Assembly: GCA_905234845.1 (NCBI GenBank)
Contig: CAJOIW010000001.1
Location: forward strand, 1 to 64,000
Reading direction: 5' to 3'
Source of the DNA: an uncultured Prevotella sp.
GTDB lineage: Bacteria > Bacteroidota > Bacteroidia > Bacteroidales > Bacteroidaceae
DNA: 64,000 nt
A program made the translations under genes and the position numbers. Below the pieces are notes generated by a model. That model was not told where the DNA came from and made no database searches. It saw only the letters and a list, made by a program, of their open reading frames with translations. Shown here piece by piece: positions 24,825 to 52,657 of the stretch; the first letter of the stretch is position 1; each line of letters opens with the position of its first letter.

Positions 24825-24900
24825 CGGGATTTAGCGCAGTTGGTAGCGCACACGTCTGGGGGGCGCGAGGTCGCTGGTTCGAGTCCAGTAATCCCGACCA
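24825..24900 (+). tRNA. tRNA-Pro (anticodon GGG), CCA encoded
   Basis: CGGGATT...AATCCCG acceptor, TTCGAGT T-loop, anticodon loop CTGGGGG, 3' ACCA. Confidence 0.93.
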
Positions 24901-37953: not shown

Positions 37954-39828
37954 ATGACGTTATATTCCGATGCCGAACTGGCACAGATTCTTGACAAGGA
38001 TATTTTTCATCTGATAGGTCAGGCTGCCGATGAGCTGGGCATGGAATGCTATGTTGTGGGCGGTTATGTGCGCGATATTTTCCTCGAGCGGCCATCTAAG
38101 GACATCGACGTGGTGGTGGTGGGTAGCGGCATTCTTGTCGCTGAGCAGCTCAAGAAAAAACTTGGCAGAAAGGCTCACCTCTCTGTGTTCAAGAACTTCG
38201 GCACGGCGCAGGTGAAGATAGCCCCCACCAACCTCCCCCCACCGGGGGAGGCTATGCCCATAGTGGAACATTATCAGACAGCATCTTGTGAAAACTATGA
38301 ATTGCTTAAACAAAATGCTAAAGAACATCGTAAAAATCCTACAGAAGCAGAGTCTGTATTGTGGGAATTGTTGCGAGGAGGTGCTATTGGGGAGAAATTT
38401 CGACGACAGCATGTGATAGGCAATTATATCGCTGACTTTGTTAATGTCAGACATCAGCTGGTCATAGAGGTTGATGGTGGATATCATTTCACGCCTGAGC
38501 AACAGGAACTTGATCGTGTAAGGACTGAGGAGTTGAATAGAATGGGTTATCGTGAGTTGCGCTTTACGAATGAGCAGATTTTGACATCTCCAGAGAAAGT
38601 GTTACTTACGATAAAGGAAGCTTTAGCAGTAGAAGCCTCCCCCAGTGGGGGGAGGTTGGAGGGGGCTCTTGAAGTGGAGTTCGTGGGTGCCCGCCGTGAA
38701 AGCTACAGCCACGACTCGCGTAAGCCTGTCGTAGAGGACGGCACGCTGGAAGACGATCAGAACCGGCGTGATTTCACCATCAATGCGATGGCCGTCTGTC
38801 TGAATAAGGCGCGCTTCGGGGAACTCGTCGATCCGTTCAATGGTCTGGCTGACCTTGAAGACGGAATTATCCGCACTCCTCTTGACCCTGACATCACTTT
38901 CAGCGACGATCCCCTGCGCATGATGCGTTGTGTGCGTTTTGCCACGCAGCTCGGCTTTTTCATTGAGGGAGAAACCGAGGATGCACTGCGTCGAAATGCC
39001 GACCGTCTGAAGATTATTAGCGGTGAACGCATCAGCGATGAACTCAATAAGATTATTCTTGCCCGTTATCCGAGCACAGGTTTCGATTATCTCTATCGCA
39101 CAGGCCTGCTTCAGCTTATCTTGCCCGAACTGGTGGCACTCGATAATGTGGACACCTCGCACGGCCGTCCGCATAAAAACAACTACTATCATACGATGGA
39201 AGTGTTGGAAAATGTGGCAAAAGTCTGCCCTGCTGATAGCTTGTGGCTGCGCTGGGCCGCATTGCTCCACGATATCGGGAAGATGCGCACGCGCCGATGG
39301 GAACCTGTGCAGGGATGGACTTTCCATAACCACAACTACGTTGGCGCAAAGATGGTGCCTCAAATTTTCCGTCGGCTGAAATTACCCCTCGACGTGAAGA
39401 TGAAATATGTGCAGAAACTCGTAGACCTGCACATGCGTCCCATTGCCATTGCTTCCGACAAAGTGACCGACTCGGCAGTGCGTCGTCTGCTCAACGATGC
39501 CGGCGACGATATTGACGACTTGATGACCCTCTGCGAGGCGGACATCACCAGTAAAAACCATATACGCAAGCAGCAGTTCCTGCGTAATTTCCAGTTGGTC
39601 AGGGAGAAACTTGCCGATCTGAAGGAACGTGACTATAAACGATTGTTGCAGCCTGTCATCGACGGTAACGAAATCATGGAACTATTCCACTTGAACCCTT
39701 CACGTGAGGTAGGTGAGCTTAAAAAGACCCTCAAGGATGCTGTGCTCGACAATCTTGTGCCCAACGAGCGTGAGCCGCTTATGCAATTGCTCCTTGAGAA
39801 AGCCAGAGAAATGGTTTTGACGACCTAA
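37954..39828 (+). CDS. cca: CCA tRNA nucleotidyltransferase (HD-domain type) carrying an in-frame DUF559 nuclease-domain insert
   Basis: CYVVGGYVRDIFLERPSKDIDVVVVG...VEFVGARRESY...VEDGTLEDDQNRRDFTINAMAV; HD domain LLHDIGKMRTR; insert between TAQVKI and LEVEFVGARRESY. Confidence 0.95.
   Translation: MTLYSDAELAQILDKDIFHLIGQAADELGMECYVVGGYVRDIFLERPSKDIDVVVVGSGILVAEQLKKKLGRKAHLSVFKNFGTAQVKIAPTNLPPPGEAMPIVEHYQTASCENYELLKQNAKEHRKNPTEAESVLWELLRGGAIGEKFRRQHVIGNYIADFVNVRHQLVIEVDGGYHFTPEQQELDRVRTEELNRMGYRELRFTNEQILTSPEKVLLTIKEALAVEASPSGGRLEGALEVEFVGARRESYSHDSRKPVVEDGTLEDDQNRRDFTINAMAVCLNKARFGELVDPFNGLADLEDGIIRTPLDPDITFSDDPLRMMRCVRFATQLGFFIEGETEDALRRNADRLKIISGERISDELNKIILARYPSTGFDYLYRTGLLQLILPELVALDNVDTSHGRPHKNNYYHTMEVLENVAKVCPADSLWLRWAALLHDIGKMRTRRWEPVQGWTFHNHNYVGAKMVPQIFRRLKLPLDVKMKYVQKLVDLHMRPIAIASDKVTDSAVRRLLNDAGDDIDDLMTLCEADITSKNHIRKQQFLRNFQLVREKLADLKERDYKRLLQPVIDGNEIMELFHLNPSREVGELKKTLKDAVLDNLVPNEREPLMQLLLEKAREMVLTT
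38221..38668 (+). mobile_element. Candidate mobile element with ~32-bp terminal inverted repeats encoding a DUF559 domain
   Basis: Left end GCCCCCACCAACCTCCCCCCACCGGGGGAGGC; right end (rc) GCCCCCTCCAACCTCCCCCCACTGGGGGAGGC; 2 mismatches in 32; internal PD-(D/E)XK-like ..YIADFVNVRHQLVIEVDGGYH.. Confidence 0.8.
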
Positions 39829-46985: not shown

Positions 46986-47792
46986 TCAATATGAGGCTGT
47001 ACAGGGGATGCCCATGGCGATGACGCGATCACGGATGCTGTCGAGTTCTTCGTGAGTGGCTTTGTGGAGTGTGGCGTCGGGTGTTTCGCGGTCGATGGTG
47101 TAGACCATAACGGCCTGCGGGGAGATTTCCTTTATGGCCTGCAGCCAGGGAGCAACAAATTGCTCGGTCGTGTTGTCGAGCAGGAAAGCCCCCTCCAACC
47201 TCCCCCCACTGGGGGCGGCTTCTTTCTTTTTCAAAAACATAGTTTGTATGATAACGTGTCCTTGAAAGTGTTGGAGTTGTTGTACGATGTCGGCGGCACG
47301 ATAGTTGGGTGAAGTGGGACGGTCGACACATCGGATGAAGTTGTCGTCGACGGTGTCGAGCTTCTGGATGTTGTTGTCGACTCGCAGCAGGGCTTTGAAT
47401 ACTTTTGGGCGATGTATAAAGGTTGCGTTGCTGAGCACAGATACTCTTGCATGGGGGCAATAGCAGTCGCGCAGACGTATGGTATCGTCAATAATCTCGG
47501 GAAAGTGAGGATGGGCAGTGGGCTCGCCATTGCCGGCAAAGGTGATTACATCGGGCACAAGACCTTCGACAATCATCGCTTTAAGTTTTTCCTCGAGGGC
47601 GACGGCCACCTCTTCGCGTGTAGGTCGGGGTAATGTGGGTCGGTGGTCGTGGTTGAAGCCGCATTCGCAGTAGATGCAGTCGAAAGTGCAGAGCTTGCCG
47701 TCTGAAGGCATGAGGTTGATGCCGAGGGATGTTCCGAGGCGGCGGCTGTGTATAGGTCCAAAAATGGGCGAGGAATAGATGATAGTGCTCAT
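46986..47792 (-). CDS. Radical SAM protein with repeat-encoded insert
   Basis: SRRLGTSLGINLMPSDGKLCTFDCIYCECGF; FAGNGEPTAHPHFPEII; start set at MSTIIYSSPIFGP. Confidence 0.9.
   Translation of the reverse strand: MSTIIYSSPIFGPIHSRRLGTSLGINLMPSDGKLCTFDCIYCECGFNHDHRPTLPRPTREEVAVALEEKLKAMIVEGLVPDVITFAGNGEPTAHPHFPEIIDDTIRLRDCYCPHARVSVLSNATFIHRPKVFKALLRVDNNIQKLDTVDDNFIRCVDRPTSPNYRAADIVQQLQHFQGHVIIQTMFLKKKEAAPSGGRLEGAFLLDNTTEQFVAPWLQAIKEISPQAVMVYTIDRETPDATLHKATHEELDSIRDRVIAMGIPCTASY
47181..47221. repeat. G/C-rich palindromic repeat in the radical SAM gene
   Basis: 41 nt identical to 52417-52457. Confidence 0.92.
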
Positions 47793-47919
47793 TTTTTTAT
47801 TAACAATTGATATTTTCTTAAATTTTTGGCAAAAATACAAAATAATTGACAAATGACAATTGGTAATTGATAATTATTTTGTATTTTTGCGCTCTGAATT
47901 TCATTATTGCTTTAAGGCT

Positions 47920-52081: not shown

Positions 52082-52163
52082 AGTTAGAGGAGTTCAAGGA
52101 GTTTCAGGAGTTTCAGGGAGTTAAGGAATGAAGGAGTGAGGGAGTTAAGGAGTTAAGGAGTGA
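52082..52163 (+). repeat. Degenerate tandem array of ~8-9-nt GGAGTTAA-like units
   Basis: gagttagaggagttcaaggagtttcaggagtttcagggagttaaggaatgaaggagtgagggagttaaggagttaaggagtgaag. Confidence 0.85.
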
Positions 52164-52657
52164 AGAAGTTGAAAACAATTGTCTACCTCTCGCTCGGGAG
52201 CAATCTCGGCCGTCGTAGCGCCAACCTCCGCCGTGCCATCCGCCTAATAGGGCAGCAGGTGGGCGAGGTCACAGCCGTGTCCGACTTTCTGGCTACCGAG
52301 CCATGGGGTTTTACGTCGGAGCATTCGTTTCTCAATGCTTGTGTCCGAGTGCTGACGTCGCTCACACCTCGTCAGCTGCTCGAGGTCACCCAACAGATAG
52401 AACGGCAGATGGGACGCAGGAAAGCCCCCTCCAACCTCCCCCCACTGGGGGCGGCTTTTTCTCCGACCCATCCCGAGCAGGGGAGAAAAGTCTACCACGA
52501 CCGCATCATCGACATCGATATCCTGCTCTACGGTGACCTCCGTGTCGACGAGCCCGACCTGCAAATCCCCCATCCCCTCATGCACCAGCGCCAGTTCGTA
52601 ATGCAACCCCTCCGGCAAATCTGCCCCGACGAGCCGCAAACCCTTAATAACCCATAA
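52160..52657 (+). CDS. folK: 6-hydroxymethyl-7,8-dihydropterin pyrophosphokinase with repeat-encoded insert; GTG start
   Basis: VYLSLGSNLGRRSANLRRAI; FLATEPWGF; YHDRIIDIDILLYGDL; IPHPLMHQRQFVMQPL. Confidence 0.92.
   Translation: MKKLKTIVYLSLGSNLGRRSANLRRAIRLIGQQVGEVTAVSDFLATEPWGFTSEHSFLNACVRVLTSLTPRQLLEVTQQIERQMGRRKAPSNLPPLGAAFSPTHPEQGRKVYHDRIIDIDILLYGDLRVDEPDLQIPHPLMHQRQFVMQPLRQICPDEPQTLNNP
52417..52457. repeat. G/C-rich palindromic repeat in folK
   Basis: CAGGAAAGCCCCCTCCAACCTCCCCCCACTGGGGGCGGCTT. Confidence 0.92.

Follow-up and report, generated by a model that had tools for sequence, protein, structure and literature searches.

Results

The cca gene and its insert

The window (the whole stretch of Prevotella DNA analysed here, 64,000 nucleotides) contains a cca gene, which is the single cca match in its genome. 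As the initial annotation had stated, the reading frame is open from end to end, and it is interrupted in frame by an insert that encodes a nuclease domain. In the fused ORF, the cca motifs GGYVRD and DIDVVV lie upstream of the DUF559 domain, and Pfam places the remaining PolyA_pol head and the RNA-binding and HD domains downstream of it. The DUF559 match covers residues 118-224 (E 6e-30, 103.7 bits against a cut-off of 20.6), and the DUF559 core, described earlier as intact, does retain the residues that are invariant in the family. The only strong Pfam matches in the fused ORF are to the cca domains and to DUF559/REase. No Hint or splicing domain was matched in the fusion up to E=1, and there is no sign that the insert is removed. 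An internal ATG, noted previously as a possible start for the nuclease, is present and in frame. The coordinates of all these features are collected in Table 1.

Table 1. Features of the cca locus and solo palindromes in the window
Feature	Position	Strand	Remarks
cca (CCA-adding enzyme) ORF	37954..39828	+	624 aa; in-frame interruption by the element
Whole element, AGCC...GGCT	38220..38667	+	448 bp (1 mod 3); limits based on the end motif, which forms the outer ends of moved copies
Left terminal palindrome	38220..38253	+	AGCCCCCACCAACCTCCCCCCACCGGGGGAGGCT; all six frames free of stops
In-frame internal ATG	38254..38256	+	candidate separate nuclease start
DUF559 (PF04480) nuclease domain	38305..38625	+	all family-invariant residues (D..., ExDG, H) present; fold matches 3HRL and I-Bth0305I
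Right terminal palindrome	38634..38667	-	inverted, same family as the left end
Solo palindrome in radical SAM-like ORF 46989-47873 (minus)	47187..47220	+	KKEAAPSGGRLEGAF, in frame
Solo palindrome in folK ORF 52157-52654	52423..52456	+	RRKAPSNLPPLGAAF, in frame

The ends of the element are inverted repeats of 34 bp each, starting with AGCC and finishing with GGCT. The palindromic inverted ends proposed in the initial annotation are retained, while the boundaries and the repeat length have been redrawn to those given here. The core pattern of the palindrome is found four times in the window and not once in 100 shuffles. The length of the element is not a multiple of three, and for the frame to be kept 1+3k bases at the cca site must have been deleted or altered as well. 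Judged from the occupied sites, no target-site duplication was seen at the window copy or at the displayed moved-pair and argG-argC copies.

It is worth adding that the window holds just one tRNA gene, tRNA-Pro (24825-24900), and that its 3' CCA is encoded. Because this single tRNA gene encodes its own CCA, cca need not be essential.

The insertion site and structure predictions

Related cca genes were proposed at the outset as the place to look for empty sites, and in the relatives the corresponding position is indeed a short loop. The element is absent from the cca of 28 relatives, in which the insertion point is a loop between TAQVK and EVEFVGAR. This loop usually has about 4 residues, and in some species it reaches about 16 or more. 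No two strains were found of which one carries the element and the other does not. The question of how cca tolerates the insert is answered in part: the loop that receives it varies naturally, is bordered by two predicted β-strands, and has taken up other insertions as well. The cca gene of one relative, genome G022 (L047), has two in-frame inserts of different kinds, neither of them the window element. The one at the window's insertion loop is bounded by another repeat type, and the one in a second cca loop is the solo palindrome peptide KPHPQSPSPKGEGEGTV.

In the AlphaFold model of the cca fusion, strands 84-91 and 239-244, which flank the insert, are retained. The nuclease part is predicted with low confidence in this model, for which the input alignment consisted of cca orthologues only. 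Modelled by itself from 66 sequences, the nuclease domain is predicted well (pLDDT 87.7). It matches the catalytic domain of I-Bth0305I (3R3P) with a Foldseek E of 1e-4 and a TM score of 0.58-0.61 by query, and also gonococcal NGO0050 (3HRL); Vsr (1CW0) ranks lower, with E=0.06. Translation of the cca gene would give a single fusion protein, in which the nuclease domain projects from a hairpin loop.

Solo palindromes and other copies in the same genome

Solo copies of the end sequence had been noted inside folK and a radical SAM gene. Both are confirmed, and both are in frame (Table 1). The copy number of the window palindrome in its own genome is low (about 8 close copies), and the repeats in this genome are largely coding, because most of the further copies fall in long open frames too. 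The genome has three DUF559 genes, with palindromic ends that are different for each, and two of the three lie in frame within larger genes, these being cca and a gene for an MmeI-like type IIG enzyme. The latter restriction-modification gene (L020:5820-9443, on contig C3) carries more solo palindromes in addition to its DUF559 element, all of them in frame. The idea that the palindromes avoid stop codons was considered and rejected: seven of eight have more open frames than base-shuffled sequences, but the excess is small and comes mostly from GC content.

Inverted ends at DUF559 loci

The end score of a locus was defined as the best inverted repeat between its 400-bp flanks, with a threshold of at least 14, and the DUF559 loci sampled were the best-scoring domain matches, a non-random set. 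On this measure, inverted palindromic ends are present at 56 of the 64 loci from the genus, and inverted ends at 55 of 77 from the wider Bacteroidota and 16 of 30 in the phylum sample, whereas the control loci (cca genes, n=28) score 8-13 and none reaches 14. The comparison of genus loci with controls bears out the suggestion, made from the window alone, that DUF559 ORFs elsewhere would also be flanked by palindromes. Ten records from a plasmid collection, all from other phyla, include three with scores that clearly exceed those of the controls, from Deinococcus, Sphingomonas and a Pseudanabaena plasmid. The DUF559 locus of the Pseudanabaena plasmid has a perfect 40-bp inverted repeat. Several more of the ten have nearby palindromes without clear inverted ends.

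The ycjD gene of E. coli (L228, L229, L238 and L242, in the order sapF-ycjD-fabI) belongs to the DUF559 family, and GC-rich palindromes lie directly downstream of it. When the sapF-ycjD-fabI region is used as a query, the median number of matching places in an E. coli genome is 4. The use of ycjD as a clean empty-site system was rejected, since in the ycjD-less strains examined other genes follow sapF.

Single-domain GIY-YIG genes of Bacteroidota (L283-L312) also frequently have inverted-repeat flanks, 14 of 28 scoring at least 14, and several of these repeats are of a different, CTGAGCTTGTCGAAG-like palindrome type. These genes are a possible parallel case of nuclease-palindrome pairing.

In-frame copies in other genes

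Among 136 loci, DUF559 lies deep inside a longer frame at 47 and forms an N-terminal fusion at 17. According to Pfam, it splits a single domain or sits between domains in ValRS, LeuRS, IleRS, MazG, ABC-F, UvrD-like, MetH, DegT, CinA and GH31 proteins and in DEAD/Lhr and SF1 helicases; MmeI is interrupted too, and the N-terminal fusions involve ArgB, IspF, Gmk, PurD, LeuC-like and SpoU proteins. Where the insertion is in a synthetase gene the ends are often decayed, which would be expected of an old insertion, and older internal insertions are mostly without recognisable ends (an inverted repeat of at least 14 in 2 of 11, in the phylum sample). In-frame copies would survive because the palindromes are GC-rich and without stop codons, because the nuclease frame no longer has a stop of its own, and because such copies lie in surface loops or at protein N-termini.

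Ends are matched to the nuclease

For the 56 genus elements, nuclease similarity and end similarity between genomes are correlated, with r=0.48. When ends were permuted within each genome the mean was 0.14 (sd 0.07), and none of 2000 permutations reached the observed value; since the permutation is within genomes, species background is controlled for. The ends vary within one genome, and recur with related nucleases in other genomes. Those of the window element recur in its near neighbours on the nuclease tree, L098 and L104, both of which are within mazG. In one DUF559 clade (L003, L062, L074, L078, L248, L257, L269 and L282) the palindromes are reversed, with the conserved tag pointing inward.

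Matches to the commonest type of palindrome pattern were counted across 150 genomes of the genus; a reversed control pattern gave none. In genomes at least 90% complete, this family is present in 28 of 42 that have DUF559, against 2 of 28 that do not (odds ratio 26, p=4e-7, for a single palindrome family and by a statistic that ignores phylogeny). The window-type palindrome is found in seven of the 150 genomes; each of the seven has a DUF559 match, which is weak in one case. Y1 transposases, which are present in 88 of the 150 genomes including that of the window, show no association with the same commonest family, either in near-complete genomes (p=0.15) or overall (p=0.41). Where Y1 loci have inverted ends, the end sequences are of other types.

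Movement and the argG-argC junction

DNA homology between elements at unrelated sites stops at the palindrome border, as illustrated by the alignments L118/L169 and L114/L273 (right end), L107/L165 and L278/L280. Convergent palindrome pairs without a nuclease are common, and at L219 (also L215/L216) such pairs have similar spacers and different flanks within one genome. That nuclease-free pairs are simple deletion copies was considered and rejected: apart from palindrome-like pieces, 18 interiors resemble nuclease elements no more than shuffled controls do.

At the argG-argC junction, ten Prevotella-group genomes have DUF559 elements between homologous flanks. The flanking DNA is about 77-90% identical at the 5' side, and the nucleases are mostly 50-66% identical. 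These nucleases are not one clade, and require 8 changes on a tree of about 120 columns with many unresolved forks, at least 3 of them forced by well-supported branches. On this sequence evidence the junction is read as a hot spot, with probable repeated acquisition or replacement of DUF559 elements. At one of these loci (L112), the downstream palindrome provides the start of the ArgC reading frame.

Discussion

Comparison with known systems

The element most likely works like a RAYT/REPIN pair, but with a nuclease of the Vsr/I-Bth0305I type. The analogy with RAYT/REPIN was drawn from the window alone and is upheld by the wider survey. As in RAYT/REPtron/REPIN systems (an IS200/IS605-like transposase with REPs), one nuclease gene is flanked by inverted, short, imperfect palindromes, which are also dispersed as solo copies and convergent pairs, with co-occurrence at the level of the genome. 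Unlike RAYT, the element has no HUH/Y1 transposase in a Pfam scan of its ORF, and its nuclease is Vsr/EDxHD-like. Its ends are AGCC...GGCT and have no GTAG or CGTC tag, as these tags are defined in PMC3733652. Also unlike RAYT and REPs, the presence of the palindromes is independent of Y1 genes, and copies lie in frame within genes.

With EDxHD homing endonucleases such as I-Bth0305I, the element shares the catalytic fold and a selfish-looking insertion into conserved genes. It differs from I-Bth0305I in having no intron or intein, no additional DNA-binding domain, and nuclease-matched palindromes as its borders. Rickettsia palindromic elements (RPE) are palindromic DNA found in frame in protein genes and retained in the product. 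The initial annotation called the element intein- or RPE-like. The second half of this description stands, in that solo palindromes are in frame in protein genes, although here the palindromes additionally bound a nuclease gene and are unrelated to RPE in sequence. The first half does not, given that there is no Hint domain. The element resembles an intein as an in-frame, nuclease-bearing insert within a conserved enzyme, but it has palindromic ends and also exists as a stand-alone gene, and it is not an intein. Terminal inverted repeats are a feature that it shares with insertion sequences and MITEs.

Caulobacter VsrA, gonococcal NGO0050 and E. coli YcjD, which belong to the same DUF559/Vsr-like family (PMC12907096), are described as repair-type or uncharacterised nucleases, and in the papers searched they were not found to be connected with flanking palindromes or in-frame insertion. 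No description of a link between DUF559 and palindromes was found in the literature searched, which was available in part, included few subscription papers and did not extend to bioRxiv.

Interpretation

We conclude that the insert is probably (we would put this at about 0.7) one copy of a mobile unit, in which the gene for a single-domain DUF559 nuclease is combined with two copies, in inverted orientation, of the REP-like palindrome that belongs to it. The results demonstrate that the unit is discrete, that its ends are matched to the nuclease, that it occupies many unrelated sites, that it recurs in frame in conserved genes, and that it has been acquired repeatedly at a hot spot. We propose that the nuclease, with its Vsr/EDxHD fold, would nick or cut the palindromes or the target DNA, and that host repair or recombination would then copy the unit, or nuclease-free palindrome pairs, elsewhere without target duplication. 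The co-occurrence data fit the earlier suggestion that this may be an autonomous element whose nuclease drives the spread of solo palindromes.

The main rival reading makes the nuclease a parasite rather than a mobiliser: the palindromes would be REP/REPIN-like repeats in their own right, spread by other means, and DUF559 a homing endonuclease invading those palindrome pairs that fit its specificity. This is unlikely but deserves to be taken seriously: nuclease-free convergent pairs are common, one site holds different nucleases in related species, the nuclease is closest in fold to the catalytic domain of a homing endonuclease and the relatives of that domain, and specificity for a pre-existing site would also be expected to give co-variation of nuclease and ends. 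However, the near-absence of the palindrome family from near-complete DUF559-free genomes (2/28) speaks against it, though it does no more than that, and two nuclease-free L219 pairs have moved whole, which needs a trans-acting mobiliser, and it is DUF559 that co-occurs.

It is very improbable that a RAYT/Y1 (HUH) transposase mobilises the palindromes and the nuclease cargo in trans, as for classical REPs, the ends here being AGCC...GGGGGAGGCT. The frequency of Y1 genes in the genus, and the presence of one in the window genome, would allow this, but the palindromes occur independently of Y1 and the inverted ends at Y1 loci belong to other sequence types. Slightly less probable still is a functional, non-mobile accessory domain taken up by cca and other enzymes: the frame is fully open with its residues intact, and PMC1829167 has already noted DUF559 fused to SPOUT methyltransferases, but the domain is missing from the cca of the 28 relatives, and this package is also found interrupting many unrelated enzymes and free-standing between genes. 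An assembly artefact or chance resemblance can be dismissed as negligibly probable, since although the window genome is fragmented and 82% complete, the insert is deep within a 110-kb contig, and the nuclease-palindrome organisation is repeated in single-contig genomes and in named isolates (Flavobacterium, Pedobacter).

The presence of the nuclease-palindrome package inside many Bacteroidota genes suggests an undescribed kind of mobile element that is able to reside in working proteins. Whether the DUF559 elements amount to a new class, that is, a unit with one nuclease, no transposase and cognate palindromic ends which spreads to unrelated loci, generates nuclease-free pairs and can persist unspliced in frame in essential enzymes, we judge to be an evenly balanced question; other small nucleases (GIY-YIG) may run parallel systems with palindromes of their own.

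DUF559 is widespread and, to our knowledge, its role is not settled. Several families of REP-like repeats are without a known mobiliser, and the CGTC REPs are said in PMC3733652 to have no dedicated transposase. The pairing of DUF559 with REP-like repeats provides a testable mechanism for the origin of such repeats, and accounts for the frequent low-complexity peptides (of the PSGGRLEGA and LPLGEGLGV types) in Bacteroidota proteins. The insertions also point to loops where aminoacyl-tRNA synthetases and other enzymes accept about 150 extra residues, and reveal a route to the gain of a domain that is not spliced out.
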